Assembly (NCBI RefSeq): GCF_963675165.1
Contig: NC_087378.1
Location: 8,578,572-8,642,571, forward strand
Direction of reading: 5' to 3'
DNA: 64,000 nucleotides
Source of the DNA: Halichondria panicea
Lineage: Eukaryota; Porifera; Demospongiae; Suberitida; Halichondriidae
Shown: one piece after another, positions 16,906 through 61,172 of the stretch
Layout of the letters: every line of letters begins with the position of its first letter
How positions within the stretch are numbered: position 1 is the stretch's first letter
Notes under the pieces: model-generated
What the model was told of the DNA's origin: nothing
The model's input: the letters and a program-made list of their open reading frames with translations, nothing else
The model's database searches: none
Made by a program: the position numbers and the translations under genes

Positions 16906-19782
16906 TTATGATTGTTCTGTGCATGCCTCGCACTTCCATTCGACGCCATCAACTTGAAACACTTCGTTGGGAATGCTCAAGCACGATCGATGATACCACC
17001 CCTTGCAAACATCACATTCTGCCATAGGATCGTCTTCGATGCTTTCCTCGGGCATTCTGCATGTGCAGTACAGGGAGACATGCTCAGCGTGGATCACACC
17101 TGTTGAGGTCCTCGAATTCCTTATTGGGAAGCGATCGAAGCAGCACTTCTTGAGGCTCTCCTTCAGGTGTTGTCTTGTGGATGTGTGCTCGTACACCACG
17201 GTCAGCGGATCGTTCCCAGCACACAAGTCATAGGCAATGGCGATAGCTAGCACACCACAGTCAGAGCCGTTTGTCTGTCGACCGACGTCCATCATGTTGA
17301 TTGTGAGGTTGGGTAAGGTGCATAACATCAGGCTTGCTATAATTGGAATCGTTGACTTCTGAACGCTGCGGTACATGGTGTCGTAGACGTTTACTTGCCC
17401 CGGGCTACAGCCAACAGTAGACACAACACACCAGTGCATATTGCTCACGTTTAAAATTTGAACAAATTCTCCTTTGTTCACATTGAATCCTCTAATCGCT
17501 TGGAGTGTAGGTGGCTGTAGGCCTTCAATGTGCGGGAAATGCTGGTACAAAAGGTGTTGGCTTGCAGTGATGACGATATCATTCAGCCATCCTGTGGGTC
17601 TATCAATCTTGTTGATGTCAGTTGATGACAGACAGTATATGGATGTTTGAATAGTGTTATCACCCTGTTGTGTGTCTGGGTCCTCTTCTGAATCATCGTC
17701 CTCCACGTACAGATAGTCTGGAGTGTCGATTGCACACGAGCAGCTCACCATGTCTTCTTCCTGCAGTGCTCTGGTTGACACGACCTCGCTCTGGCGCCAG
17801 TTGTCGAGGGGAATCTCGTAGCCTTCGTCTTCCCCCAATTTGTGTAGCTCACTTCCTCCAAATCGCTTCAATAGGGTCCCTCGCTTGGAATGGAGTGTGT
17901 ATCGCTTGTTGGTCACTTGAGCAATGCGACAGACAAGGTGTTTCCCAGACAACCTCGTAACGTGGATGGCTACCTTGTCTCCAGGTTTGAAAGTCTGGAA
18001 GAGCCTTTTCCCACGGTTCCTATTGCCCGCTGGGCAGTTTCTCTTGTGTGCTTTGGGATTTGGGCAGATACATTCGCCTCGTTCTGCGTGCAAAATTTGA
18101 TCCTCGAAGTCGCTTTCACTGCTGTCACTGCTGTCCCTGTTCACACTAGCGTCTGTCCCATTGTTTCTGTGTTGTAAAAATATTTATAGCGAACATGTTA
18201 TCACAATCACACCACAAAATCCCATTGTGGCGGCTGCTGTACATTACACATTGCTTCTGTTAGTATACATGCATTCATGTGTACGTATTACTCACTCATC
18301 TGATTCAGCTGAAGAAGGTCCTTGTTTCTCTGATTTAGGATGACTTCTGGCATCCCTGCATGTAAATAAGAAACCCGGACATCAGATCAGTAAATTGTAT
18401 AGATGCATGCATGGTGTGCTTCAATCATATTAACTGGACACAATGTTTTTTGCGTGTCTGTATGTTGTTTTAAAATCTCATTACAACTCTGACCTGCTTG
18501 CGTGTCGCTTGTTCAGTGGGCAGTCTCTGTGAGATTTGTTTCTGTGTTCGCTGGAGCCACACTTGCAGAGTTTCGTGGCAGCTTGATCCTTCTCTGTTCT
18601 CTTTCTCCTCCATTCACAACCGTATGCATCACCGAGTTTCTTTGACCACTTTATTCTTTCTTCCCTGTCCATCTTTCTCTTAACCTTATATCGTATCCTT
18701 CTCTTCTTGTGCTTATCCTCTTTGATTTCTCTCAATTGCTTGTCTCTGGATTTTCCGTACTTCTCCAGAGCATCCTCAATTCCTGTATAGAGGGGCAGCC
18801 CCAACCTTTGGTACAGCACAGGAATCCAGTGGTAATGAGGTCCTTTGTTTTTTCTCATTGAGGTAAGGTTGGCTTGAAGGAGGCCCAGCTCTGTGGAGAG
18901 CTCGTAGTGACTCTTTTCCAAGGAGATGTGCTTCTGCCTAAATCGAATTAGGATGTTGTGTGATGATTCCATCGAGTTTGTGTGCCCTGCTTTTAGTTCT
19001 GGGTGGATCAGCGATGATGACTTTCGAGCCCTGTGCTCAATCTCCGTCCTGTAGGCCATCATATGGAAAGGACATGTCAGCTTATCCCGTGTGTGGTACT
19101 CTTGTCCCTCGCACACAAAGTTTGTTTTGTCGGGGCACTCTCCACAGCTGCACACTTTTAGGGCGTGAAAATCGCAAGATCCGCCATCCCACACGTGTTC
19201 ATCAATTGCATGATGGTAGAGACTACGGGTTTTTTTTTCAAATTCCTCTTTGGACTCGCTGTTCGACAGAATTTTTGAGAACAAATTTCTGGAGTTTTTG
19301 ATGAACTGGTCAGTGAAACATCCGCAGCCTTTCTTGTGCTTTTTTCCAGAACAGGAGCAGGGCTTGTTCTGTATGTCCGCAATGTGATTTTGATGACTTT
19401 TAAACATTGTAGAGGTGAACGCTTTCATTTGCATCAGCTTTTTCAACTGATTGAGATGAGACCTTCCCTCGTGTCCACGACACATCATTATTTCTACGTC
19501 CTCGTAGATACCTCTTATGGCCTTTGAGGTGGAGGAGTCATCATCCTGCCAATTAGGGGTTGGTGTAATTATTTTGTAAATTAAGGCAGGAATTGCATCA
19601 TTCTAGCTTGCTTATAATCATAGATATAATGCCATTAAGTATAACCATTACCTGCCGGTTTATTTCCAATTTCATCCCCTCTTCTTTGGCTTGCTGGAAG
19701 AGTTTCCTGGCTGCATAGCCCTCCGCTCCCTTGGACGTCCCCTTGTACAGATTGTCTCCGCCCTTTTGAGACAGATGTATTC

Positions 19783-19882
19783 GAAACAGCAATTCACCTG
19801 TGAAATAATTTCTAATACTGAAAGTAAAGTTCGAAAGAGCAATTCACCTGTGAAATAATTTCTAATGCTGAAAGTAAAGTTC
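19783..19882 (-). repeat. 50-bp tandem duplication that frameshifts the transposase
   Basis: Two adjacent 50-bp units, 19783-19832 and 19833-19882, differ at two positions. They duplicate codons for the SIRNYFTGELLF region of the Mutator-like transposase. Because 50 is not a multiple of three, the downstream frame is shifted. Possible cryptic splice sites inside the units would remove 30 nt and would not restore the frame. Confidence 0.9.
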
Positions 19883-20841
19883 TTCGAATGATGACCTCTT
19901 GTCATCCATGCTCCATCTGCAACAGTGACGGCTCTCTTCCACGATCCTAGCTCTTCTGGTTTCATTTGTTTCATGGCCTCTTTGGCTTCTGTGCACATCT
20001 CATCCACCATTTTTTTGACCACTGGGTGCATAGTGCGAATAGTGTCTTGAAACCGGTCGTCGTATGTGGACTGAATTCCCAGCGAGTAGCGTAAGACCTT
20101 GGTGTAGGTTGTGAAGGTACACCCACTGATGATGAAGGCGACATGCAGTGCTCGTGTGATCTCACTGTTCCTTCCATCTTCTTGTACCTTGCACGTGTCC
20201 AGTGTGAGCTCTTGTCCTCGGCATCCGTCACAATTGTATGTTATTGTTGCAGCTCCACCTATTCCCCTCTTGACTGAGGTGGGAACAAGGTTACCCCTAC
20301 AAGCTGGTTCAGGGCACTGACGAATCTCATTGAGGCGTTCAACAAACTCGTCCAACTGGCTCAAATCAAGAAAACAAAGCGCCTTTTCATGCGCATTAGT
20401 ACATCTTATGTCCATTGGTGTTATAATGTAGTCCAAATCTTGAGGGTATTCCACAGTGGAGAGGGGTGTGTCTGGTTGCGAATCCTGAAGGGGGGTCTGC
20501 TCTGGTAAATTTAGCATATAATTATACATGTACGTGCATATACCGTAAATAGGGACGGATTTCAACCAATTATAAGCTGCGAAAAACAATATAGCACGTA
20601 GTCAAAATATAATACGCGAAATTTGCGGCAATTTTATGGAAAAAATTGGGGGCCCGCTATGTATGATACATATGTATAATTATATGCACTGTACGTGGTT
20701 GTACTGATGATGTAACTATTAATTTTCTCACCTGTAGACATCTCCTCTTTGGAGTAGGGGGCGAGTCGGACTCTTGTAGCCTGTCCTGTTCAGAGTAGTC
20801 TTCAAGTTCCTGTATACAGGTGGGTTAAATTCCTTAGCATA

Positions 20842-24949: not shown

Positions 24950-25770
24950 CCCAACTGTAGCGTACACCCTCGGCTACCCGCCAAATAACGTTTCGGGGTG
25001 CTCAAAACTTGTAAGTGCCGAAACAAGGCAAGGGCCCGGTTAAAGAAACCCATACACGTTTGGGCGAGGGGGGCGCGCCGGAGCACGGGAGAAAACTTGC
25101 GCTTTAGGGCATGCCTCGATTTTGGCAACTTTATATTTTCGATAGCCGCAGTGCACGGCACCCATTAATGAGTCGATGGCAGGTTAAGTATTAGAATATT
25201 TTGCTGGTGAAAAACCTTTGCGAATGTGCATGGCATTTCTTCTAAAATTATGGATCAGCACGAGGATCCCGGCTCAATAGCTTGAAATTCACCAAACCTA
25301 GTGGTTTTACTGTACATAGGCTACTATGGAGAGCAGTCTTGTGTTAGTTATAGTTGCTGTCTCCATTAACGGCTTACAATATTCGAGTTCACTTGAGCTT
25401 GCTAGAGAGCACAACAGTAGATCTACACAGGCACTGTATTCGTAGATTTCATTGGAAAGGTGATTCTGAGAGCTACTGCATCAATATTATTAGTTTAGGA
25501 ATTGAACATGCTCTCAAAAATGCTACTAAATAATAGTTAGTATTTCCATAATTCAAAAACATGTACCTGTACATGAAACAATTTTATACATGGCTTATGG
25601 CATAATAAGGCAATCTATATTCATGTTAGGTAGACCACAACATTCCAATTAGACACATGCATGCAGCCACAGCCTGTTGGACCATAACTACATGTACACT
25701 TAGTCCATTTGCCTATTGCCATGACCACTTTCCAATCAAAATTAAATTACACTGGATTCAAGTAATTATT
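24950..25770. other. non-coding repeat-rich DNA
   Basis: No gene was found. A fragment at 25190-25320 resembles MITE sequence (TTTGCTGGTGAAAAACCTTT). The stretch at 25430-25520 repeats words from 23870-23910 in inverted orientation (GAATTGAACATGCTCTC). Confidence 0.4.
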
Positions 25771-25828
25771 TATTAGTTCTAGAAACCGCTAATAGTGTGA
25801 GCAAAGTACATTTACTGAGTGCGCGTGC

Positions 25829-25897
25829 AGTCCACTGATGAGTCCCGGCACAATAAACATTAGGGACGAAAAGGTCTTGTATTCGACCTTCTGGGCT
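25829..25897 (+). ncRNA. type-I hammerhead ribozyme (family B, copy 1)
   Basis: CTGATGA at 25835-25841 is followed by stem II (GTCCC/GGGAC, 25842-25846 with 25863-25867), then GAAA at 25868-25871. Stem III is AAGGTC with GACCTT around an 8-nt loop, and the cleavable C is 25891. Stem I pairs AGTCCA (25829-25834) with TGGGCT (25892-25897). All core positions and three helices are present. Stems II and III are capped and stem I is open, so the fold is type I. Cleavage is predicted after 25891. Confidence 0.9.
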
Positions 25898-26300
25898 ATA
25901 CCAATCCGTTACTGTAAGTGTATGGCTTTTTGTCGCACTTTTCTGCAGCTCAAGCACACCTGTCCAGCAACATTTTCTCCATACAACGCCTTCTCATGGA
26001 TCTGACCAATGAGGTTGCGTAACACCAGGTGGAGGTAGCAAGAGTATGGCCGCCCAGATTGAGAATGACGGCGTGGCAGGATATCAATACTGGAGACTGC
26101 TGCCAGGTAACTCCACTGCAGATAGTGTGAACTGCATGCTGTTACTGTTCCACCTCACTTGTATTAGAGCTTTAGCTAGCAAGCCAAGAAAACACTGGCT
26201 CTTTCCTTAGCTGTTCGTGTATTGTTTATGTGCGTGCTACGTCAGTGCTGCACGTGTTTTTTTGTTTTGGTAATTCTAATGTTCTCCTGTCCTTACACAG

Positions 26301-26333
26301 AAAAAAGTGGTTGACTCCTTCGGAAAGTTCAGG
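26301..26333 (+). other. short exon KKVVDSFGKF (copy 1)
   Basis: A TTACACAG acceptor, 33 coding bases reading KKVVDSFGKF, and a CAG|GTCAGC donor. An identical exon is at 55775-55807. Too short to assign. Confidence 0.4.
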
Positions 26334-26725
26334 TCAGCTTTACTACATGTGTACGTACCTGACTTAGCACCTATTGGGGTGTAAATAAGAGATTGAGTTA
26401 CTATTGGGCATACAGGACATGTAATGGGTAAAAAGTACCTATTGAGCGTATATACATGTACATGTATACATGCACGTACGTAGTGGTAAAGGGTTAGTAG
26501 TTATATGAAAGTGACTAAATGATAGTGATTATCAAAGGCCACCTCTGTAGCCAAAACTTTGTTCCCCGAAGGTGTCCGTTATGTAGACCACTCAAACTTT
26601 GTGCAATGCTGACACGTAACGTCTAAACAACCTCTGCCACCTCTCTTTTTGAGAGGCTTCAGTAGTTACGTATCTACCTCCCTCTAAATGCTGAGAAATT
26701 ATCGGTGTTTTCTTCTGGTTCACAG

Positions 26726-26858
26726 ACTGAGTTCATTGTAGACAGTGAGGAGTGTGCACAGGGCCAGAGACACGGGAGCAAGCCTGGCATCTTTCTCCAG
26801 TTTGATGGCCACTGGGACCCATCGCCAGCATCAGCTCTTACCGGACAGCTGGGCAAAC
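26726..26858 (+). other. exon EFIVDSEECAQGQRH (copy 1)
   Basis: Bounded by TTCACAG and AAAC|GTACGT, it is open for 44 codons (EFIVDSEECAQGQRH, then GIFLQFDGHWDPSPASA). In the partner copy at 56182-56316 a 2-base insertion shifts the frame. The product was not recognised. Confidence 0.45.
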
Positions 26859-27789
26859 GTACGTGCTTTATTTTAAAAGAATGCCAGCCTAAATAGATGA
26901 ATACATTTTGTTATGGGCAGTCAAAGATAGTTGCGAATGCCTCTGTAACATTATTCTATGTACATGCACTAGCCCGTCAATTGGACACCATTGCGTACGT
27001 ACATGTACATGCTTTTCTTTTGTATCAGGCCGATTGGTATGATGCTACATGTACATGTACGTATTTGCTCTTGTAGGTGTAGGCAAGAGTGTATTACCAA
27101 GAGTATGCAACTGCCTCTGGAGATGAGATTAGGCATTGGGCCTCTGCTACGTCACTACAATGTGTAATTGTGTAAACTGTGAAAACCGATAAGGCAACGC
27201 ATCAGAGTCAGTGCACGTGCATAGCATTTTGGCAGTTGGCTGTGGAGGGAGCATGCTGTTCACAGCTATGGATTTAATTAGCGGTTTTGCTGCCTTATAA
27301 ATTTAATTAGCGGTTACCACAGTTTACACAAGTACACATTGTAGTGACGTAGCAGAGGCCCAATGTCATCTCCAGTGGCAGTTGTATACCGTGCTCTACC
27401 GAGATTACGCCCACGTCCGAAATTACGCCCACCCCACTTTTGAGTGAAAGTTCCTGCATAGGCAAGAATACGCCCACCAGGAAGTGATACATTTGTCAGT
27501 GAGTAGTTGCCGTTTAGCAGTTTATTGTGTAAGCTGGTTAGCTCTGAATATAGCTTGATATATAGCTAGATTACTCCTATTTGCAAGTATAAGAGACCGA
27601 AACAAGAACAATCTTTTCTAAATCTCTGTTGAAGAGCATCGAGGTGCCTAATGGTGCCTAATCGGTCAGATTTTTTGCATGACTAATCAAAATCAAAGAA
27701 GTCACACTGGATCATACTTGCAAGTATTATTAGCTAGGAACCTCTAATATAGTGCGAGCAAGGTAGATTTTATTACTGAGTGCGTGTGC

Positions 27790-27852
27790 AGTCCACTGAT
27801 GAGTCCCGGCACAATAAACATTAGGGACGAAAAGGTCTAGACCTTCTGGGCT
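27790..27852 (+). ncRNA. type-I hammerhead ribozyme (family B, copy 2)
   Basis: Core CTGATGA 27796-27802; stem II GTCCC/GGGAC (27803-27807 with 27824-27828) closed by a 16-nt loop; GAAA 27829-27832. Stem III is AAGGT with ACCTT around the tetraloop CTAG; cleavable C is 27846. Stem I pairs AGTCCA 27790-27795 with TGGGCT 27847-27852. It lies 1,955 nt downstream of copy 1 in the same orientation. Confidence 0.92.
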
Positions 27853-28381
27853 ATACCAATGATGGATGATCGACATGATCAATCTTCGTTCTGTAAGTGT
27901 AGGGCTTTTTGTCACAGCCTTTTCTGCAGCTCAAGCACACCTGTCCAGTAAATGTCCAGAACAGTGCAAGCTAGGATAATTAACATGCCCTATTAACATG
28001 CCGATTTACCTTAGGTTTTTGTTTTTCACATACATTTCACTTGGTCCATTTGCCTATTCGTTCTGCAGGTGATGTACAGTTTGGATTCATTGAGAATGAC
28101 GCTATTTTGATGTGAGGAACTGAACTGGCAGTATTTAAACAGTTACAGTCAAGAGATGTGAGTCGTCGTGGTGATGTGTATTCTGATCTAAATAGCAGCT
28201 GTTGTATATGCCCCCCGCTCCATTAGACTATAACTTTCACTTTCAGCATTAACACACACACACACACAAACGGACTACCGTATACCTCGCTTGCGCATGC
28301 GCACCGAGAGCATAATTATTCTCGGCCACAGCAATTATGTCTACATGCAGTCACATGGTATTCCTCTGATCTGTTGCCTAG

Positions 28382-28512
28382 GACCATCGAGAGGCCTCTC
28401 TTCCAATCGAACGCTACCAAGGTCACACACAGGAGGTGTGCAGGCTCAGATGGTCACCTGACGGTCAGCTCTTATAGCCTCAGGTGGAGATGACAACTAT
28501 GATGTTTTCAGA
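28382..28512 (+). pseudogene. CDC20/FZR1-type WD40 exon, frameshifted (copy 1)
   Basis: Reads [20 protein letters not shown], the GHxQEVCGLxWSPDG block of CDC20/Cdh1 anaphase-promoting-complex activators. Two extra bases (TA) then create a stop before ASGGDDN. The partner exon at 58033-58161 lacks the insertion and is open throughout. Confidence 0.7.
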
Positions 28513-28734
28513 GTACGAAGCTTGCATGTACATGTACGTGTACTTTAGATCGAGTCATCCAATGCAAATGTTCCTACACAAAGATGCATGCCTCTCAATC
28601 AGGCAAATAAGCAAATAAGCAAATAAAACCTCTCTATAGAAAACCCGTTTTCAGGTGCACCTGCACAGCATGTATATCTCCCACTCACTTTTGGTCGCAT
28701 CGTTTATAATAGGGTCACAGGCCAATGTTACGAG

Positions 28735-29470
28735 CTGTTGTATACGCTGTGCCCTCCCCCCTGTGCTCAATTAGACACTAACGTACTTTTTGTTAAACCA
28801 TAGATACAGGAAGAGAGGGATTGGTAACAAAAGCGCCTCGAATAGCCATCCGTGTTTCCCTGCGGTTTAATTGAAGCCGCCTACTTTCAACGTTGGGAAA
28901 AATGGCCAGACACAAAATAAGAGACAAACGATTGTTTTACTGTCAGTATAAGAATTTTGCTGCTTGACTTTCAGTTCAATGCAGTGCTTTAGGCCATATG
29001 CTACACAGTACACTACTTAGTTAGGCAGCTCTAGCTATATTATAGTAGCAGGAGGTACATAGTGTCGCATGTACCTCTAGCTACTTCACAACAATCGAAA
29101 TTATGTTTTTGTCATCTCTAAATGATGCCTACAAGCAAGGGGCATCGAATAGAAGGGCTTGGAAAGGTTCGTAAAGGTTGTTCTACCGCATTGGGGAGGG
29201 AAACACGGATGGCTTGTCAAGCTCTGTATTGATTTCATGTAATTTTATATGTGGCTTATGGGCGCACGTGATCCGTTGCCAATCCCTCTCTTCCTGTATC
29301 TATGGTTAAACAAGCTGTTGCATACGCTGTACCCCCCCCCCCCCTGTGTTCCATTAGACTATTATAATAACGTACTTTTTGTATGTTGTATACGCTGTGC
29401 CCCCCCCCCGTGTTTCGTTAGACTTTTATGTGTTGTATACGCTCTGCCCCCCCTGTGTTCCATTATAGTG
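28735..29470 (+). repeat. imperfect repeats with GTTGTATACGCTGTGCC and C runs
   Basis: At least four copies (near 28737, 29311, 29387, 29433) of a unit of about 60 bp: GTTGYATACGCTGTRCC, a C run, TGTGTTCCATTAGACT and ACGTACTTTTTG. A TIR transposon (28799-29304) is inserted in the first unit. Confidence 0.75.
28799..29304. mobile_element. TIR transposon with 7-bp target duplication, copy B
   Basis: A 506-bp element with ends starting CATAGATACAGGAAGAGAGG. The first 26 bp are identical in inverted orientation, and the right end continues into ATCACGTG like copy A at 13650. It is flanked by perfect GTTAAAC repeats (28792-28798 and 29305-29311). A second inner inverted repeat, GCCATCCGTGTTTCCCT, lies at about 28843 and 29199. 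It has no ORF, so it is a non-autonomous relative of copy A. Confidence 0.88.
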
Positions 29471-31306
29471 TTATAATAATGTATGATCGACCCTTCAGAG
29501 ATAGGACCTCCGTCTCACATAGCGTTTATTGTCTAGTGGGTCTTTACCGGCTGTTTTGGCTCATTGTGACTGTTACTTATCCATTCTAAAGTCTTTACCC
29601 ACTAATCGAGGCACGCGTGTCGTATACCTCCTCTGCTCTTGAACTGTGACATACATTCGAGAATAATGGTATAACAAGTGCAAAAAACATTTTTGGGAGA
29701 GTAGGGCATGTGCTCTTGAACTGTGACATACATTCGAGAATAATAGGTATAACAAGTGCAAAAAACAAAAATGGGGAAGAGTTATTGGACAGAGTTCAGG
29801 TAACAATAGAGATCACAGAAAGACGCACAAACATGAGTGAAATAAGCTTCATCACAGGGACTTATATGCAGGAAGCGGCTTGTTTGCCAAGGTGGTTTGA
29901 ACACCAATACTTGCTGGGGAAATCTGCACTTTATTGTGTCCACATCATCATGCTACATGTAGGTGGTTCCACCCAATTTCATAGCTCCGTGGAGGGTCAC
30001 AGCGATCCCTACTCAACTGGTAGTCAGTGACCGCCTACGACGTTAGTATTTAGCTTTTTTTCACAGCAATATTTTCTTTTTTGCAGCTCTAGTGAGTTTC
30101 TCTATAGCAACACTTTCATTTTGAAAATTTTCATTTTGGATCTAATTACCAACCAGGAATTTGGCTGCCCGATTCACTCACATTGAGAACGACAGAGATC
30201 AAGAGACAAGACTCGATCAGAATAAGTCAACGTGTTATACGGTACCCTCTTCGATGTGGGTCATTCGTTTCTCACGTTTAATTCTTAAGTTTCACCCCAA
30301 AAGCACTCTATGTGTAACTATACACGACAATGTATAGTGTACGTCCCAAAGTTAGCTACTTGCTTGCACCATAATCATCAAGGTGAGGTGTATTGGCATT
30401 GGCCTACAGTATTGCCCAGCAGTGACAGTTATTGTAGCCTTTAAGGAATGGATGCATGTAAAGTACTTAGTATACGTACAATTAATCCTTAATTCGAACC
30501 GTTGCCAATAATTATCATAAACAACATTAGATTGCAATCATTAATCTTTGTATGTACACATGTACATTATTATTGTCTTTGTGCAAAAGCACAAGATATA
30601 CTGTGACATGCAGCCTATAAGCACATGTGTCATATACACACACACAGCACATACACCACTCCAGGTATGGCAAAGACCAACTCGTTGTTTTGGGACGATT
30701 GTACATATTGCTAGGTTGTACAAAGACGTTATCTCCTCCGCAGTGGGAGCCTAGGGTTTGGGATCACCAAGCACCTCCAGTGACTGTCAGCGGATTGCTG
30801 TAAAAGGTAAGGGTTACAAAGTAATGTGTTAAACCAGCATGTATGTAAATTTATAATGCAATACTAGCCATGTACGTACATTTTATCTCCACAGTTAATA
30901 CTGACTCTGTCATAATCCATGTACACGCATGTACCTAAAGTGTCTGTTTCGTTATATACGTGTGTCCATTACAAATGGTTGTGATCCTCCAACTGTGTAC
31001 CTCTAACTCTAAACCATTGGATATCACCATCCCCTCATGTCCTTCTACCCACGCATTTCTGTGTCTTACATGGGGAGGTATGAGTTAGCTAGCCAGACCA
31101 AGAAACCTGGTTCAGAGCTAGCCTCTTTATATACATGTCGTCGTGTGTGCTAACAGTAGTACTGATAATTTGCTTTTAGTGTTATGTATTGCATCTCTTG
31201 TCCTTGCAGAGAACAAATTAGCTTGTGAAAACGTGACCCTATATACCCATTGGAGATGAAGCCAATTTATTGTGTAGGGGGTATTTACCGTATTTTTTTG
31301 TCTCAG
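29305..31306. other. non-coding with local duplications
   Basis: No convincing gene. A tandem duplication of about 55 bp (CTCTTGAACTGTGACATACA onward) is at 29636-29690 and 29711-29767. Near 30160-30230 there is a decayed relative of the segment encoding IENDKDREK at 32240. Confidence 0.45.
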
Positions 31307-31482
31307 TGTGTTGTGATTCGTGTCCCAACGACAGTGCTGGCTGCTTGACAGAAGTGATTGACCAATGGATGAAGGGTTGGTCTGGACGACCAACATGGAG
31401 TGAGCTGGCCAATCTCGTCTCAGTAACATAGGAGAGAAGCAAGTACATGTAGCAAAGGAACTTGTGACCAGCTACGAGTCTG
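31307..31482 (+). pseudogene. death-domain-like exon with frameshift
   Basis: Between a TTGTCTCAG acceptor and a CTG|GTGAGT donor one frame reads VIDQWMKGWSGRPTWSELAN and LVS. The continuation IGEKQVHVAKELVTSY is in another frame. The pattern W..G....PTW.ELA......G....A.EL...Y is that of death/death-like domains. The frame change suggests a pseudogene. Assignment rests on pattern recognition only. Confidence 0.45.
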
Positions 31483-32953
31483 GTGAGTATACAGTGATAA
31501 TAGTTGTGTTAGGTTGTACAATCAACCCTTTATCAGAGCTACGTAGGACTCGTGTGTCGCTTAATGTTTATTGTCTAGTGGGTCTTTACCGTCTGTTTTG
31601 GCTCAGTGTGACTGCTGCTTTTACCCAAGTGCTCTAAAGTATTACCAAATGTACCCACTCTGAGTAGAGAGGATGTGTTTATTGGTTGACTGATGCTTCC
31701 ATTTACAGCCCCTTTGTATACTTTATTGCTTCTTGATGTTTACCACTTCTAGCAGTTAGAATAAAGTTCCCATTCTGTTTACGTGTAGGGGCATGTGGCA
31801 GGGGTGCACGACTCTAGGAGGATCTTCTGAGAGGAGAGTGTGTTATATAAAATATCTCCTTAGGCAGTTCCAGCAGTGGATTGCAGCTACATCTGTTATA
31901 GAGTGTACACAGACCAGTGAGGAGGACCTTGCACGTAAGGAAGTGTTTTGGTACACAGTAATATTACCTAGCTAGCTACATTGTAGTGTTTTCTAACCAG
32001 AGAGATGGGATTCTATTTCACAGAGTGTATACTAGCTAACGTAGGTGATGTGTTTTCTCTGTGCATGGTGGCCTATATCAACCTTAGCACTCTAGTGGGT
32101 CTTTACCGTGTGTTTTGGCTCAGTGCGACTGCAATATTTCCTTTTCTGCAGCTCAAGCACACCAGTGAGTTTCTCCATAGAATCAGATTGCTCGTAGCAC
32201 CAGTCGTATGCTGATGGAGGTGGCAAGAGAATCTCAAGAAAATGGCTGCCCAGGTCACCCAGATTGAGAACGACAAAGATCGAGAGAAGACTCACCGATA
32301 AGAGAGAGTACATGTAAGTCAATATACAGTACCCCCTTAGATTATAGGCACGTAGTTCACATTTAAAGGTCGTCAGTTGAATCCGAAGGTCGGGTGGAGA
32401 TGCTGGCGTGATAATATCGGTTTACGCGGGCACAGTCTTTGTGGCTTAACCTGTTGACCCATACTTGCATTTTTTTGTCATCTTGTTGTGGGGGCTGGCT
32501 ATGCGTTTAGGCCACTCTTTTTATTTGTTGAACACACAATCAGCATGAGCTTGCCGTCACACAAACACGAAGTTTAACCCCACTCTCTTTTGAGTAGCCC
32601 CACAAAATTAGCGCCACTGTTTTTAGCTTGTCGCCACACAAATACAAAGTTTAGCCCCCCTACTCTTAGCATACTTTTAGAACAAATAGTATGCCATACA
32701 ATGGAGGATTTCAAGTTGGTGGCAGAAGTTAAAAGTTGAAGTGCACTCAGCCATGACCCCTCCCCCCCACACACACACATGTACACACACACCGTGCACT
32801 GTGCACAGGAGGATAGTCAGGGTCAATTAAAAGGATTCCTGATAACTTATTTGCATTCCGCTCTTTCTTTCTTACCTCTAACCACTAGCGAGGGGGTTGG
32901 AGATAATTAAGTCCGCTGGAAGCAGATTTGAATTGACCTTAAATATCCTCATT

Positions 32954-32984
<31 letters not shown>

Positions 32985-33300
32985 TACTGACAAACATTTG
33001 GTTCATATTAGCTCAGCCAACAAGTCACAAGTAAGTATCCTTTGTCTTCGACTTAATTCGTGGATTTGCAAAATAATGTTCACAGTTTTGCTTACTTGGA
33101 ATGTCATTGCAGCCTTTTCAGAAGAGCACGTTTGTTTACGGAGTGTCAATTGGTTGATCATTACCCATTCTTTGAGTTTGCATGTGCAGTAAAATGTATG
33201 TTCGTCATGTAAATTTAAAAAAGCTATTAGTTGCTTTATGTTATATGTACGTAGCTTTGGCATCTCCACCGAGGCATCAGCACCTGAGGTGCTAAGTATA
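31483..33300. other. exon remnants and repeats
   Basis: Contains a candidate remnant at 32240-32310 (MAAQVTQIENDKDREK) shared in shape with 26045 and 57460. The stretch 32480-33300 is duplicated at 52560-53310: AGCGCCACT and TTAGCTTGTCGCCACACAAA words, a CACA tract, then the dispersed GAGGCATCAGCACC family. Confidence 0.5.
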
Positions 33301-33303
33301 CTT

Positions 33304-33739
33304 AGACAGAGGAGGTTGGCCACGCGTCATCAATTTTGTGACGTATGTGATGTCTCTGCTCAAGTTACCATGGATACCGAGCAACTGTAAAAAGAATGTA
33401 TGGCTACTGTTACTTTGCTAGCTTATAACTGTTGTCTAGTTGGACCAGGATTAGCTAGACTATAGGGTAGAGTATAGCTCAGCGGTGCTGCATGTAGCTT
33501 GTACTGTACTGGCTGACAAGAATCTGGTAAACACTATATGCACTGATAACTCGCCAGAATAGAGGGGATCGCTGGGGATCGGGTTGGTTAATGATAGCCA
33601 GAGAGATACATAAATGTTGCTTTCAGTCTCCAATGACCGTGCAACACCAGCTAGAAGTTTACATGGAAAACCCTTGTCAATTTCTATGCCAGCTCAGCAA
33701 AAAAAGTGGTGCACGTGATCGTGTCCAACCTCCTCTGAT
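33304..33739. mobile_element. possible TIR element, CAGAGGAGGTTGG ends
   Basis: CAGAGGAGGTTGGCCACG at the left is matched inverted at the right by CAGAGGAGGTTGGACACG, whose inner side continues into ATCACGTG like the 7-bp-TSD family. No target duplication could be defined and there is no ORF. Confidence 0.4.
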
Positions 33740-34054
33740 GCTTAGATCATGTTTGTCATAAATACTGCAATTTGATTGGCTAAAGGAATTAAGTGTTCTA
33801 TCCAACTTAGAAAATCATGTATATACTTCACTTAGAAAATCATGTAGAGATAAGAACATTCAAATCTGATTGGCTAAATACCCATGGTTGCTATGATCTA
33901 AAATGCTTAGACACTGTTTAGGAAGTTTCCACGTGATTTAGAAGTCCTCAGGGCACTGCGTTCGAGATACTACGACCAGCCCTTTGGGCTTCTAAATCAT
34001 GCAGAAACTTCCTAAACAGTATCTAACTATTGCATAATCATACCATGCAACTGC

Positions 34055-34122
34055 ACTGTGCTGATGAGGCCCAATAAGGCCGAAACCATCTGACCATAAT
34101 TATAAGGCAGATGGTCCACAGT
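34055..34122 (+). ncRNA. type-I hammerhead ribozyme (family A, copy 1)
   Basis: CTGATGA 34061-34067; stem II GGCC/GGCC with a CAATAA loop (34068-34081); GAAA 34082-34085. Stem III is 8 bp (ACCATCTG with CAGATGGT) around a 15-nt AT-rich loop, and the cleavage site is GTC ending at C34116. Stem I pairs ACTGTG 34055-34060 with CACAGT 34117-34122. Every invariant base is present. Confidence 0.95.
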
Positions 34123-34894
34123 TGTTAACATACATGATTGGCATCCTATTGTAAAAACAACTGAAAAACTCAATTTGAAATGCAAATTATTTACCTCTAC
34201 TATAGTGTTGAGAGGCATTAGCAAGCTATAGCGCACGCTTGCAACACTCATGTAAGTTATGTGCATGCCCATTATATAATTTGATAACATAATTGCAAAA
34301 CAACAAGCGAGAGCTAGCTAGTGACAAGCTACTGAGTGGGAGTGATAAGTGAGCATCAATAACAACGCAGAAATACAATCAATTAGTGTTTGTTTTCAAG
34401 AACGTTTGTAATTAATGTATAGAATTAGTGTATGTTTTGTTTTCCCCTTTTCAAAAGACGTTCATTCGGCCGGTTTCCAAGACACCTTTGAGGTACGGCC
34501 TTCATCTCGCTTTTTTTTTTCGAGGTATCGCCAGTAGCCATATAACCCCGCTCACATCACCATCATGTTTGCCATAAATACTGCAATTTGATTGGCTAAA
34601 GGAATTAAGTGTTCTATCCAACTTAGAAAATCATGTATATACTTACTTAGAAAATCATGTATATACTTCACTTAGAAAATCATGTAGAGATAAGAACATT
34701 CAAATCTGATTGGCTAAATACTCATGGTTGCTATGATCTAAAATGCTTAGACACTGTTTAGGAAGTTTCCACGTGATTTAGAAGTCCTCAGGGCGCTGCG
34801 TTCGAGATACTACAACCAGCCCTTTGGGCTTCTAAATCATGCAGAAACTTCCTAAACAGTATCTAACTATTGCATAATCATACCATGCAACTGC

Positions 34895-34962
34895 ACTGTG
34901 CTGATGAGGCCCAATAAGGCCGAAACCATCTGACCATAATTATAAGGCAGATGGTCCACAGT
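34895..34962 (+). ncRNA. type-I hammerhead ribozyme (family A, copy 2)
   Basis: Identical to copy 1, 840 nt downstream, with predicted cleavage after 34956. Cleavage at both sites of one transcript would release an 840-nt RNA (34117-34956). Confidence 0.95.
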
Positions 34963-35516
34963 TGTTAACATACATGATTGGTATCCTATTGTAAAAACAA
35001 CCCATTTATAATGAAAAACTCAATTTGAAATGCAAATTATTTATTTACCTCTACTATAGTGTTGAGAGGCATTAGCAAGCTATAGCGCACGCTTGCACTC
35101 ATTTTGTAAGTTATGTGCATGCCCATTATATAATTGACAACATAATTGCAAAACAACAAGCGAGAGCTAGTGACAAGCTACTGAGTGGGAGTGATAAGTG
35201 AGCATCAATAACAACGAACAACGCAGAAATACAATCAATTAGTGTTTGTTTTCAAGAACGTTTGTAATTAATGTATAGAATTAGTGTATGTTTTGTTTTC
35301 CCCTTTTCAAAAGACGTTCATTCGGCCGGTTTCCAAGACACCTTTGAGGTACGGCCTTCATCTCGCTTTTTTTTTTCTCGAGGTATCGCCAGTAGCCATA
35401 TAACCCCGCTCACATCACCACGGGACACTGCAGGAAATAAACACACACAGTCACATTGCATTCTCATAATCGTCTTCACTCACTGTATTAACGCTCAAAA
35501 GAAATGTTTAAGAACA

Positions 35517-35681
35517 ATGAAGTTGCCCATTGTTTTGTTGGTGTGTTCGTTAACTGTAAGGTCTCTTGCACCAGCTAGTGTGCTCATAGAGACACAAACG
35601 GAAGGAATACTTTTAGGCTACACATACATATTCAAGTGCAGCTACATTCTCACTAGCCTCGATCGCAGTCCCTCTCACTAG
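35517..35681 (+). CDS. small ORF with signal-peptide-like start
   Basis: ATG at 35517 gives MKLPIVLLVCSLTVRSLAPA, a basic residue then a hydrophobic stretch typical of a signal peptide, followed by about 34 more residues to a stop. It could be a first exon of a secreted protein or chance. It lies directly after the second hammerhead unit. The family was not recognised. Confidence 0.25.
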   Translation: MKLPIVLLVCSLTVRSLAPASVLIETQTEGILLGYTYIFKCSYILTSLDRSPSH

Positions 35682-35810
35682 AGGAAGGCCTGGTAACCAA
35701 CCATGCACCGTTCACGTTAAATTTTTTCGAATTCTTTACCCAACGAAAATTAACTGCTACAGTAGTAAAGTTTTTAGTACTTATGGTTACCAACGTGGTT
35801 GATTAAACTA

Positions 35811-35998
35811 CCGTATAGCACGAAAATTTCGCGGATTTCGTGGGTTAGCCGAAAATTAAGTCCACGAAGTAGAATTACCTGTTACAAGTCATGTATGACG
35901 TAAAGGAGTAAGCAGTCATTCTGCAAACTTGTGCAACGAAATACTTTTAGAGGCCAATCCACGGAATATAAGTGCGTTGAAAATTTCGCGCTGTATGG
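35811..35998. mobile_element. MITE, CCGTATAGC ends, TA target
   Basis: 188 bp; left end CCGTATAGCACGAAAATTTC, right end inverted as CCATACAGCGCGAAATTTTC, flanked by TA. Confidence 0.8.
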
Positions 35999-36111
35999 TA
36001 TTAGAAATGAAGAGAGGAGAGATAATCGCCATCACAACTCTAGGCTCATACGAGGAGCACTGATCTTTCTAGTAGCTATCAGATGGGCTAGAACCTTCAA
36101 TCAAAGTTTCC

Positions 36112-36320
36112 ACCGTATAGCAGGTTATTTTCGAGGCACTAAATGTTCGCAGATTGGCATTTCGAGGATTTATTTTCGAGGATAGATGTTCAATTGACCA
36201 CACCCCTATAGTAGAAAGGCTCAATACCGGATGTAAACCAATTTTCGAGGCACTAAATGTTTGTGTTTCTGGGCCAATCCTGTTTCTGGGCCAATCCTCG
36301 AAAATAACCAGCTATACGGT
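36112..36320. mobile_element. MITE, ACCGTATAGC ends
   Basis: About 209 bp; ACCGTATAGCAGGTTATTTT on the left and ACCGTATAGCTGGTTATTTT inverted on the right. GAGGCACTAAATGTT is repeated inside. Confidence 0.82.
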
Positions 36321-36848
36321 AAACGGTTGCGTGTATTCCAGAACTGGTCATTTTCCTGTTTGAGAAATTATAAATTTATATATAGACGCCGCCCCAACCC
36401 CCCTGTTTGAGTGAGAGACCCGCAACATTATTGGATATTTGTTCCTGTAAATACTGACTTGACAAAGTCATACACAGAGCTACTTTCTTCCTGATAGAGT
36501 AGACTTTCGAAGTTAATATTAGATGGACGTGGCCTGTCCATTAGGCTATTGTCAGCTTCACTCCGTTCAGACGATTGTCATCCACACGGCATAGCAGGCT
36601 ACGAGTAGCTATCAGCTCTTTCTGAGATGGGCTAGAAACCTTCAATCGAACTTTCTATCTACTTCCTTCCCGTTTGTTGTTTTACTGAACATAATTATAC
36701 GTTGTTATCATGCGTTAGCCGGTATCTGGCTAATGGTTAGCGCACGCGCAAAGAGTCGATACCAGGCCCTCTCTTCCTAACACATACCAAGCTGCGCATG
36801 CGCAACCGAGGTAGTTAGCTTGCTACCCCTTAATTAACTATACCTAGT

Positions 36849-43337: not shown

Positions 43338-46300
43338 TCAATTATCAAATTGTTCATCATTTGGCAGGATTACTGCGAGTTTGGTTATTGGCCGAGTATA
43401 GGTTCCGTTAGTGGTTCTAATCGTTGCCACGCGTACTAAATTGTCTTTTCCTGGGTGAACTTCGATTACGCAGGCGAGAGGCCATTTGGTAGATATTAGA
43501 GAATCTTCATGGATTACAACTAAATCACCAGGTTGAATGTTTCGAGTGGGGTGCCGCCATTTGTTAAAGCGTCCAAGTTGGGAGATGTATTCTAAGGACC
43601 ATCGCTTCCAGAAGTGTCTGAGTAGAGACTTGCACAGCTGCCAACGCTTGAGGAGGGAAGTGCATCCTGTGGGGGTGACTTCTGGGAGAGCTGTCAGTGG
43701 CTTCCCAATGAGGAAATGACCAGGTGTGAGAGCTTCAATTCCATCATCATCATTAGGGAGTGGAATGAGAGGTCGACTATTGAGGCAAGCTTCAATTTGG
43801 GTCAAGAGGGTGGAAAGTTCTTCATACGTCAATTTTACATCACCTAGAATTCGTCTCAAATGAGTCTTCGTAGATTTGACTGCTGCTTCCCAGATGCCGC
43901 CTAAGTGAGGTGCGTGCTGGGGAATGAACTTCCAGTTAATCTTCTTATCACTGAGGTAGTGACTGACATTTTCTTGAGTGGATTGCATTTGTAGGAATTG
44001 GTAGAGATCTTTGAGTTCTCGAGCAGCTCCAACGAAGTTTGTGCCGTTATCACTCCAAATGAGCGAGGGGAGGCCGTGTCGAGAGATGAAGCGTTTCAGA
44101 CACGCAATAAATGCGTCTGAGGTGAGGTCAGTTACTAATTCAAGATGGACTGCCTTCACTGTTAGAGAAACAAACACACAGATGTAGGCTTTGACTACTG
44201 TGGGTTTACGAACGTGTCCATATTTGATCATCAAAGGGCCAGCATAGTCAACGCCGACTTTGTCAAAGACTGAGCCAGGTGTGATCCTTTCGATAGGGAG
44301 TTGTCCAAGCATCTGAGGTTTGGGTCTTGCTGTGTACCTGCGGCAAATAATGCATTTCCTAGCAACTGATCTGACTACCTTACGTCCACCAACAATGTGA
44401 TAACGTCTGGATAGGGAGGCAGAAAGTAGAGTAGGACCTGCATGTAGTAGTCGCTGGTGTTCATGTCGTATCATCAAGTGGGTGAGAGGATGTTTTCCAT
44501 GTAAAATGGCTGGGTGTCGAGACTGATAGTTGGAGGTTTGAGAAAGTTGTTTTCTACCACCTACTCTGAGAATATCAGATTCATCAATAAATGGTTGCAG
44601 AGACATTAGTGAACTAGAGTTGGAGAGAGTTTGTTTTCTTTGCAGTGAATCCAGGTCAGCTGCGAAGTGAGTTGCTTGAATAACCTTGATCCAGTAATTT
44701 TCTGCTGCTTGCAATTCAGTGGTTGTGAGATGAGTCTTGATCCGTTCTGCTATATTCTTGGTTTGAGAATTTCGATTGAAACAAATGGTCCAAGCAGTAA
44801 CACGTTTCAAGGAGTCATAACTTGAAAATCGATCCATAGGGATGATGGGTGTGAGATCTTGAGTGAGTACAAGTAGTGATACTTCTTTTTCATCAATTTC
44901 AGGTTTGTTTGGAGGGAGAGGTAGTCTTTCAGGCCAATTAGTTGGTGGTTCTTTAAGCCAAGTGGGTCCATTCCACCAGAGAGAGTGGTCAAGGAGTTCT
45001 GAGGGGTAGAGTCCTCTTGAGGCACAGTCAGCTGGGTTGTCAGCTGAGCGAACATGTCTCCATTTGTCAGGAGGGATGAGATCGACTATGGTTGAGATTC
45101 TGTTTCCAACATATGTCTTGTAGCGTCTAGGACTTCCATCCAGCCAATTTAGTACAATTGTGCTGTCGGTCCAGGCATGTGTGAGTGAGAGGGGAATATC
45201 GAGTACTTGTCTGATATGATGGATTAGTCGAGCCAGTAGTTGAGCTCCACAGAGCTCTAGGCGAGGGATAGTTAGCCGCTTGATGGGTGCCACCTTGCTC
45301 TTAGACATCACCAAAGCAATGTGGACACGATTAGAGGTGTCTGTGATGCGTAGATAGACTACAGCTGCATAAGCAAGTTCAGAAGCGTCCGAGAAACCAT
45401 GGATTTCTGTTGAGAAGGGTTTGGACTTCTTGTCAAAGTAGCATCGGGGAATGGGTATCTGTGAGAGTAGGTGCAGTTCTGTTCTCCATTGTAGCCAGGC
45501 GTCATGGACATGTTCAGGCACAGAGTCATCCCAGTCAACCTTTAGCTCCCATAGCTGCTGCATGAGAATCTTGGCCTTGATAGTAGAGGGAGAAAACCAA
45601 CCTAGGGCATCAAAAGTCTTGGCAACATCTGAGACAAGACCACGTTTTGTCAGAGTTTCCAGTGATGTGGGAGAAGGTACAGACAGTTTGAAACAATCCT
45701 TGGGAGCATTCCATTGAATTCCAAGTGTCTTTGTGTATTCTTCCGTCGAGGGCATTTCTTGAATAGACTTGGGGTCTTTGAGGTTTGCCGGCAAGTGCTG
45801 GATAGCTCGTAGATCGCTAGAGTTCCACTTTCTTAGGAGAAATCCTCCTGCAGAGAATAAGTCCTGGAGTTGCCGTTGAAGCTCAATAGCTTCTTGAACA
45901 GTATCAGCTCCTGTGAGTCCATCATCAACATAGAATGAAGTGTCCACGCTCTTGGCTGCAAGTGCGTATTCCATAGCGTGGTCGATAGCATTTTGCTTAA
46001 CAGCCATGTTAGCTGCAAATGAGGAAGCAGATACTCCGAAGGTGATGCGAGTCATCCTGAAGTCAAGCAGAGGGTCCTTTGGGTTGTTCCGCCACACAAA
46101 GCGATGGAGATCGCGATCGGCAGTGGTTAGTTCGACAGCCCGATACATTTTGCTAACGTCTGTGGTGAGAGCAATTCGATGTGTACGGAATCGAAGGAGA
46201 ACATCAATAAGAGGGAGGTGAATGGTAGGTCCGACAAGCAGGCTGTCATTGAGTGAGATACCATTGCTGGATTTGGCAGAGGCGTCAAATACGACTCGGA

Positions 46301-47168
46301 GTTTCGTTGTCGTACTTTCTTCTTTTCTCACAGCATGCATGGGCAAATAGAACGTTTCTTGAGAGGGTTTGTGCATGTCTGCTTCTGGTACACATTCAGC
46401 GTGTTTGAGATCCATGTATTCGTTCATGACAGTAGCAAATTCATCAAATTGATCCTTTGAGTGGAGAGATCGCTCGAGAGAGAGGAATCGGCGTACAGCA
46501 GATGATCTTGACTCTCCAAGAGGTTTTGTCCGAGGGTTTTTTGGAAGTGGTACGACAAATCTACCATCTTCACTTTTCTTGTGGGTTTCAGCAAAATGAC
46601 GAACAACAGAGCGTTCTTCTGGTGAGTGATTTGAGACATCTCTTGGGCATTCTTCAATTTCCCAGAACTTGCGGAGAATGTCGTCACCAGAGAGTGTGAT
46701 TGCATAGTTAGCTGCAACATTTGAGGGGACCTTGAGATTGTCTGTTTTGCCAGTGAGTACCCATCCAAACTTAGTTTCAAAGGCAGTAGGTGTACCAGGG
46801 GGTCCATTCCGCCGGCCTTGCAACAGCACATCAGCGTAGACGTCTACTCCCAGGAGTATGTCAATTTTGTTAGGTTGGCCGAAGTCGGGATCTGCAAGGT
46901 GTAGATTGTTGAGGTGACTCCATTTGGCATTTAAGTGAACAGGTTGAGTGGGTAGATCACAAGTGACACGTGGGACAACAATTGCAGACATTTGAAGCCT
47001 TTCAACGGGTGGACACAGAGTTGAGATTGAGAACGTGGCAACTGATTGCAAGGGAGATCCGCGAGACATACCAGTGATGCCAGAGATGCAAATGTTATGA
47101 GTTGACAATGGTAGTTAGAGAGATTGAGCCAATCGCTCGGATATGAATGAAGTAGAAGAGCCTGAGTC
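43338..47168 (-). pseudogene. BEL/Pao pol: protease, RT, RNase H, integrase
   Basis: Frame 47108-43338 is open for about 1,256 codons and starts within a polyprotein, not at an ATG. Visible motifs are LTTDVSKMYRAVEL and YVDDGLTG in reverse transcriptase, FSDASELAYAAVV and WTDSTIVLNWL in RNase H, the integrase HHCC zinc region ending CIICRRY, and the integrase core (VGVDYAGPL, SDNGTNFVGA, GGIWEAAVKS). The protease active-site DSG (47160-47168) is in the same frame but is cut off by a TAA at 47115-47117. The block order protease-RT-RH-IN and these motifs are those of the BEL/Pao group. The copy is defective as it stands. Confidence 0.93.
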
Positions 47169-48850
47169 AAGTAGACCGCGTTGACAAACATTTGACAAGT
47201 CATGAGTAGTGTAGTTCCAGAGCCAGACTGAGCATAACTTGAGACCATTGGTGCTACTGCTAGAGCAGAAGATTCGGTAGAGGGAGGCTCTGACTGTTCT
47301 TTGTTTTCGGCAGACTCACGGTGAAGCAACGTGTGATGTGGCTTCTGGCATTTCTTGCAACGATTGTTGCTTCCACAATTCTTTGAGAAGTGACCTGGTT
47401 TGAGACAATTGAGACATACATTGCTTGAGCGGACAGTGGACAACATCTTGTCGTGAGGGAGCAACTTGAACTGCGGACAAGCATACAAGGGATGTTTCTG
47501 AGTCTTACATATCGAACAATTAGGTGCATCTGGCGATTGTGAATTCGCCACAAAGGAGGCTGCTGATTTGGGAAATGGTTTCCGTATCTGGTGATGATGT
47601 CTTCTAGGTTCACTTGAGCAGGTTTCTGAGGTTTGGGCACGAAGGTCAAGAAACTTAAGCAAATCATCGTAGTGAGGTGTTTTCTTGGAGTCTTGGCTAG
47701 CCTTTTGCCATTCAAACATAGTGTCCTTGTCAAGTTTCAATTCCAACAGGGCAGTGATGAAGGAGCCAGTGGGTTCTTCGTCCATAGCTTTGAGTGCTCG
47801 CAGATGCTGTTGAACAGTGTCATGGAAACGTCTGAGTTCTTTGCCTGATCCATCCTTTAAGCTTGGTACATCATATATTTTCCTGACGTGAGTTTGGTGT
47901 ATGATACGTGGTCGATCATATCGAGCTTTGAGTGTCAATAGCTTCTTTGTACTGATTGCCTGAGTGCGATAGACCTTCAATTACATGCTTGGCTGAACCG
48001 TCCTTTAGAGAGTGACGGAGGTATACTAGTTTCTCGGTATCGGAGATGTGAGGTTGTTCATCAACTGCAATGCCAAATTGCTCCCAAAAGGTTTGCCAAT
48101 GTAGCATTTCGCCATCGAATGTAGGAATATTGATTTTTGGTAGTTTAACACTGTGGGTTTCTGGGATGGAGGCGGAGTGTTCCTTTGAGCTTGAGATTGA
48201 AAAGAGTAGTTTCTTAACTTTGACTGCCATACCAAATATGTTGTCTTCCTGCTTCTGTGTGTTGCTCATGAGTGGATCTGAAGTGTCAGCAGTTATAGCG
48301 AGAATCTCGTTCCTGAGTTCAGAGAGTTCTTTCTTTAGGTCAGCCAGGTGTTCTTGGTACAGTGAGATGAGGTGAATCTCGCTACCATCATCTTTGAGAT
48401 CATCAATCTTTTCGTTAATTGAAATAAGCCTTGCTTGGAATTGTGTCGAGCGTCGCTCGAGGATGCCGCGATTTGGGAGAGAATGAGTATCAACAGCAGG
48501 GGTAGATGGAGAGAGAGTTGGAGTGGTGGATCTAGCCAGATCCATTACTGTTTGGATTCTAAGACTGAGATCAGCTACATCATCATCATGTTGGTCAAGG
48601 GTTTCTTGCTCTGTTGTGTTTCTTGCTCTGTTGTAAGCTGACCTTCATCTTCAATGACATCGAGGATTGCGAAGTGACGGGTCTTGTAGTCACTGTCCAG
48701 ATTCTCAAGACGTTTAGAGAGGTGTTGTGCATGAGTTACGATTGTTGGGTTGGGTTCTTTGTCTTCCAGCTCAGCCACCTTGGTAGCTAGTTTTGTGATG
48801 CTGGCCTTAATTGCACCTCTTCTTCTCTTGAGAGCTGGTAATTGAGACAT
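46931..48850 (-). pseudogene. BEL/Pao gag, broken into three frames
   Basis: Gag begins at an ATG at 48850-48848. It is spread over frames 48850-48575, 48545-47916 and 47980-46931, with breaks near 48560 and 47940 and a further shift near 47200 before pol. The first part is a coiled-coil-like N-terminus (RRRGAIKASITKLATKVAEL). The middle contains the capsid-like FDGEMLHWQTFWEQFGIAVD block typical of BEL gag. The end has zinc knuckles (CSICKTQKHPLYAC, CLNCLKPGHFSKNC, CKKCQKPHH). Confidence 0.9.
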
Positions 48851-57223: not shown

Positions 57224-57286
57224 AGTCCACTGATGAGTCCCGGCACAATAAACATTAGGGACGAAAAGGTCTAGACCTTCTGGGCT
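57224..57286 (+). ncRNA. type-I hammerhead ribozyme (family B, copy 3)
   Basis: Same 63-nt motif as at 27790: CTGATGA 57230-57236, stem II GTCCC/GGGAC, GAAA 57263-57266, stem III AAGGT-CTAG-ACCTT, cleavage predicted after C57280, stem I AGTCCA with TGGGCT (57281-57286). Confidence 0.92.
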
Positions 57287-61088: not shown

Positions 61089-61172
61089 CGACTTGCAAAG
61101 AGAGGAAATATTTAGTGATGAAACAATTCCACAACAACTCTATAACTAGTCCAGGAATAGAACTTCATAGAT

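Follow-up and report, generated by a model that had tools for sequence, protein, structure and literature searches.

An identical pair of type I hammerhead ribozyme motifs in a sponge genome, probably derived from one tandem duplication

The window, by which we mean the whole 64-kb stretch of sponge DNA analysed here, lies at the end of contig C2 of a 131-Mb assembly of 39 contigs. It carries two identical and intact type I hammerheads, here called HHR-A, which are a genuine ribozyme motif of a known kind. Comparison of the copies across the genome suggests that the pair probably goes back to one old tandem duplication of ~0.8 kb, later copied within a larger block; the 840-nt spacing as such is incidental. 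The initial annotation had proposed a retrozyme, a Penelope-like pseudo-LTR or a new class of element. We favour instead a single duplication that would have spread in a larger block, with borders that do not look like the ends of an insertion.

Table 1. Positions in the window of the hammerheads, the tandem units and their surroundings
Feature	Position	Strand	Remarks
HHR-B copy 1	25829-25897	+	helices I/II/III 6/5/6 bp; TTC before cut
Block common to the window and places A and B on C11	27774-36488	+
HHR-B copy 2	27790-27852	+	helices I/II/III 6/5/5 bp; TTC before cut; just inside left edge of shared block
Left flank, another dispersed repeat	33496-33737	+
Dispersed hairpin repeat of unit 1, with TTAG border	33742-34031	+
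Tandem unit 1	33746-34561	+	816 nt
Long inverted repeat within hairpin repeat of unit 1	33902-34031	+
HHR-A copy 1, type I hammerhead	34055-34122	+	predicted cut after 34116
Tandem unit 2	34562-35419	+	858 nt
Hairpin repeat of unit 2, without TTAG border	34562-34871	+
HHR-A copy 2, identical to copy 1	34895-34962	+	predicted cut after 34956
Older sequence with diverged C5 homologue	35096-35635	+	74% over 550 columns
HHR-B copy 3	57224-57286	+	helices I/II/III 6/5/5 bp; TTC before cut

Motif and fold of HHR-A

HHR-A has the features that define a type I hammerhead, namely the invariant core, three helices, an open end at helix I and an NUH cleavage site. Helices I, II and III comprise 6, 4 and 8 bp, the core is intact and GTC precedes the cut. 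The two copies agree at 73 of 73 nucleotides (34053-34125 versus 34893-34965), with 840 nt between equivalent positions; descriptor and alignment here bear out the coordinates, copy identity, stem lengths, core, GTC site and spacing given in the initial annotation. All three helices are present in the minimum-energy folds of all three stretches tested, with z-scores of -1.66, -3.14 and -2.72. A strict type I descriptor gives five matches in the 64-kb window, all on the plus strand and none on the minus strand, against a background of one match in 200 first-order random 64-kb sequences scanned on both strands. That HHR-A resembles a hammerhead by chance and is no ribozyme is extremely unlikely. 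The scores under the Rfam cut-offs do point in that direction: a scan of the window yields nothing at gathering level, and the closest family, RF02275 (HH9), reaches 32.7 bits (E 9.2e-06) where the cut-off is 52. The random expectation of the descriptor, the dispersed relatives and the covariation, however, all oppose it. By the Rfam covariance search first proposed for this motif it scores below threshold; covariation within the genome points the other way.

Covariation was assessed among eight distinct HHR-A members of this genome. All 138 cells of the fold are paired, in an alignment that puts a 2-nt insertion of the C3 member at 3.23 Mb in gap columns, which favours pairing, and in which the C9 member has gaps at six of the eight helix III pairs. 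Changes on both sides are seen at 5 of 18 pairs, and none of 500 shuffles matches these two measures; slid versions of the fold leave only 28-43% of cells paired. Further pair types are uninformative, because 133 of the 500 shuffles reach the same count. Since the fold is maintained by compensatory change, HHR-A is probably cleavage-competent. By known hammerhead chemistry, a plus-strand read-through transcript would be cut at the two predicted sites to give an 840-nt RNA, as the initial annotation had anticipated and as we agree in principle, and a host ligase could join its ends. As a circle-making device the pair is thus chemically possible.

Relatives of HHR-A in the genome

The exact 26-nt core of HHR-A occurs seven times genome-wide, as three pairs and one solitary copy, and not at all in the viral contigs searched. 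A looser pattern allowing one mismatch finds 20 positions (control, 0), 16 of which pass the structural descriptor; the four that fail are those on C10. The 16 comprise the six copies of the three pairs, five copies of an element E that are 98.6-99.96% alike over 2.0-2.2 kb, one older relative of this element (C1, 17.49 Mb; 90.8% over 1129 columns) and four further members, on C9, C1 (13.26 Mb), C13 and C3 (3.23 Mb), the last three examined over 200 nt only. None of the ten unpaired positions has a second copy in the stretch examined (at least 3 kb for seven, 200 nt for three). HHR-A is a low-copy, dispersed type I hammerhead family with a long helix III. Type III hammerheads are found neither in the window, places A and B or element E nor in 100 random 64-kb sequences. 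RF02275 gives 15 matches across the genome, all below cut-off and the best at 42.3 bits (a C1 copy), at a loose limit at which 11 of 14 control genomes match too. RF00163 gives two matches, again below cut-off, the C9 member of HHR-A (26.3 bits) and C3:6742226 (19 bits).

Between element E and its C1 relative, the ribozyme shows no excess conservation (2/68 versus 28/979 changes, p 1). Between the members C1_13.26 and C13_3.12, it has 1/68 changes and the remainder 24/109 (p 4e-5), with unaligned ends counted. Ribozyme and flanks differ at p < 1e-8 when the window is compared with loci L070-L072; the flanks there are largely non-homologous, and this value therefore says no more than that what these loci have in common is the ribozyme.

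Element E is young and is found at L046-L050 (C3, C8 twice, C11 and C12), with one HHR-A ~660 nt from the common left edge; its opposite strand has an intron-bearing frame (by eye), two pieces of which were tested and gave no significant Pfam match. On C10, four hammerhead-like cores lie on one strand within 68 kb (G000:C10:2046566-2113840), all failing the structural descriptor and scoring 21-32 bits with the HHR-A model, and a reverse-transcriptase match sits between two of them.

Tandem units and their borders

Each tandem unit is a composite, in which a dispersed hairpin repeat is followed by the ribozyme and then by older sequence. Copies of the hairpin repeat are frequent, with at least 93 matches in a whole-unit search (40 of 714 candidates scored), and the descriptor finds a hammerhead in none of 23 hairpin-repeat loci scanned with 1.5-kb flanks. 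TTAG precedes the repeat in 20 of 20 copies examined (of the 23) and in unit 1 but is absent before unit 2, and the tandem junction therefore lies inside the hairpin repeat. The right tandem border is traversed by the C5 homologue, with 407 of 550 columns identical and 106 gaps, in an alignment that is 74% alike and has 13 nt of gap near that border. By eye, no target-site duplication is seen at the borders of the tandem. Judged from these alignments, neither border appears to resemble the end of an element, the left lying within the hairpin repeat and the right being crossed by the C5 homologue.

A shared block and the origin of the pair

The window shares its block with two places on C11, place A (4.78 Mb) and place B (5.04 Mb, inverted). 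Window 27774-35809 forms a single match to place A at 97.5%, with a further match at 35792-36488, and place B matches the block in pieces at 90.3-98.2%. Other tandem copies, which the initial annotation had thought worth seeking, do exist, the exact-core pair being present at three places, but all three sit in one common block of at least 8 kb, with common flanks. When first units are compared across places, they differ at 3-6 of 790-812 positions, and second units at 3-12 of 842-854, whereas units 1 and 2 of one place differ at 13-17 of 779-812. Columns that split all first from all second units number 10 by substitution and 38 by gap; those that group units by place number 2 and 1, and other patterns account for 13 and 179. 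At place B, unit 1 is enlarged by an additional insertion of ~100 nt. Like-numbered units across places are thus closer than the two units within a place, which argues for one duplication followed by copying of the block.

Under this account, one HHR-A between an inserted hairpin repeat and older sequence would have been duplicated once, in tandem, as a stretch of ~0.8 kb, and the duplicated stretch would then have reached two further places inside the copied block. We infer the direction of these events, because a search for an empty site with the two flanks joined (250 + 250 nt) revealed neither an empty nor an unduplicated block: of 371 candidates 40 were scored, and none of the 40 matches crosses the join. 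HHR-A is intact in six of six tandem copies, which is also compatible with function; with 0/73 changes in the ribozyme and 12/738 elsewhere (p 0.62), the difference is not significant at ~2% divergence. The lesson is that ribozyme pairs at a fixed spacing need not be retrozymes.

Retrozymes and Penelope-like elements

It is distinctly unlikely that the pair is a long retrozyme, the dimer of which would spread via an 840-nt circular RNA with reverse transcriptase supplied elsewhere. The type I hammerheads seen here, both intact and identical in sequence, stand in direct tandem, as those of such an element would. Furthermore, the ~840-nt stretch, taken one base early at start and end, has a more stable fold than its shuffled versions (z -4.6, n = 20; mostly due to the hairpin repeat, by eye), and the genome has at least 150 reverse-transcriptase matches (150 of 616 candidates scored) as well as GIY-YIG frames. 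However, the pairs are confined to one block, the differences between units fit one duplication, and the tandem borders are not element ends. A metazoan retrozyme would be a unit mobile independently of its surroundings, and here three pairs occur in one shared block; as for a plant-type LTR retrozyme, HHR-A is of type I, no type III is found and no target-site duplication is seen by eye. The initial annotation had also remarked on the lack of a reverse transcriptase, and indeed there is none within the tandem or next to it; the window's single example belongs to a Pao/BEL element (43338-47114, minus strand).

The pseudo-LTR remnant of a Penelope-like element is a very unlikely source. GIY-YIG matches, which we infer to be Penelope-like elements, occur at 19 places in the genome. 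At 8 of these the open frame has 803 aa, and three of the eight frames stand in tandem ~4.5 kb apart (G000:C12:6452239-6461549). None of the 42 positions of HHR-A and the second family, HHR-B, however, lies within 20 kb of these 19 matches (by eye; the nearest is 22 kb away, on C4), and there is no reverse transcriptase between the units. Helix III is complete, with 8 bp in HHR-A and 5-6 bp in HHR-B, unlike in the minimal Penelope and Terminon forms without helix III, as those are described in the part of PMC7761336 considered here.

A second hammerhead family and a possible larger element

The strict descriptor recovers the HHR-A pair of the initial annotation and adds three hammerheads on the same strand that it had overlooked, the HHR-B copies of Table 1. 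Genome-wide, HHR-B has 22 positions within three mismatches, 17 of them with an exact core (control, 0); two of the five inexact ones are changed at the first core base, two at the GAAA core and one in helix II. The HHR-A model, built without HHR-B, detects the window's copies at 20.5-23.5 bits (rough E 6.5e-04 to 6.1e-05), and RF00163 gives 20.4 and 16.5 bits for copies 1 and 2 against a cut-off of 34. Of the three copies, only the first has the hammerhead as its best fold in the energy model. When 25734-25970 is compared with 27685-27951, changes number 1/67 in the ribozyme and 32/164 in the homologous flanks (p 1.2e-4), and the third copy gives 1/67 against 43/252 (p 2.6e-4); these low values could reflect constraint or gene conversion. 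Place A likewise carries HHR-B copies, in its inverted terminal repeats (98.7% over 2262 columns), and same-orientation pairs recur at spacings of 1961, 7843, 9004 and 12498 nt.

Such recurrent pairs, a ribozyme less changed than its flanks, the position of HHR-B at the shared block's edge as well as in place A's inverted repeats of 2.3 kb, and the common strand of the window's five hammerheads would all suit a giant Terminon-like mobile element, of which the block would be the whole or a part, with HHR-B terminal, HHR-A internal and the ribozymes processing a long transcript. We nevertheless consider this unlikely. First of all, the edge copies of HHR-B at place A are inverted, and one transcript therefore cannot hold both active strands. 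Second, one partner has an altered core in the 7843-, 9004- and 12498-nt pairs, and the edge copy at place B is altered at the first core base. Third, the second occurrence of the 1961-nt pair is due solely to a 3001-nt stretch that two places share at 100% identity. Finally, gene conversion also could explain the conserved core, and no reverse transcriptase is seen in the block. It is likewise unlikely that HHR-A and HHR-B, whose helix III is complete in each case, are parts of one Terminon-like element in which they were selected to cut a long transcript into defined linear or circular products, among them the 840-nt RNA.

The 3001-nt identity links window 25600-28600 to G000:C2:3316571-3319571, on the opposite strand of the same contig, and is either a very recent copy or an assembly artefact. 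At place A (G000:C11, ~4780350-4807484), ~27 kb lie between inverted repeats of 2.3 kb (98.7%) and 0.9 kb (95.8%), which contain tandem repeats of ~118 bp. A 365-aa frame at this place has no Pfam match and seven relatives, all without a name.

Comparison with known systems

HH9 hammerheads are solitary and intronic in amniotes. RF02275, the best Rfam match both in the window and for the C1 copy, has the same core as HHR-A and a similar helix II and loop; HHR-A differs in scoring under the cut-off, in leaving the outer pairs of helix I unformed, in its longer helix III and in being partly duplicated. Intronic amniote hammerheads are also mentioned in the part of PMC7761336 drawn on here. Animal retrozymes, in the portion of PMC7229834 considered, have repeats of ~150-450 bp, arranged from dimers to long arrays, at high copy. 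Our tandem is like these metazoan non-LTR retrozymes in its type I hammerheads, direct tandem arrangement and low G+C, and unlike them in consisting of a single duplication of 0.8 kb, carried by three copies of the same block. Plant LTR retrozymes, as outlined in the same part of PMC7761336, also have hammerhead dimers, 600-1000 bp apart, but theirs are of type III with 4-bp target-site duplications, neither of which is seen here. Penelope-like elements and Terminons, again in that part of PMC7761336, associate type I hammerheads with large elements, to which HHR-B in repeated edges may be likened; their hammerheads are minimal forms, whereas both families here have helix III, and the block has no reverse transcriptase.

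A literature search found no paper on sponge hammerheads among the matches listed, with subscription journals mostly outside its scope, which is weak evidence of novelty; the main text of a broad survey (PMC3088659) does not contain the words sponge, Porifera, Amphimedon or Reniera. If active, those described here would be well-supported hammerheads in a sponge, and an HH9-like form with compensatory changes within one genome could link the solitary hammerheads of amniotes and the mobile ones of invertebrates.

Other features of the window

On the minus strand, 43338-48644 is occupied by the Pao/BEL-type retroelement, with Peptidase_A17, DUF5641, an integrase zinc-binding domain, a weak RVT_1 and DUF1759, and 16906-20601 by frames that match a Mutator-like transposase and contain a PHD finger. 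A forkhead protein is encoded at 60111-61139. Among the best 120 of its 759 relatives, the best species-labelled one is Em0018g977a, presumably of the sponge Ephydatia muelleri, at 206 bits; named bilaterian relatives among the matches listed reach at most 106 bits.
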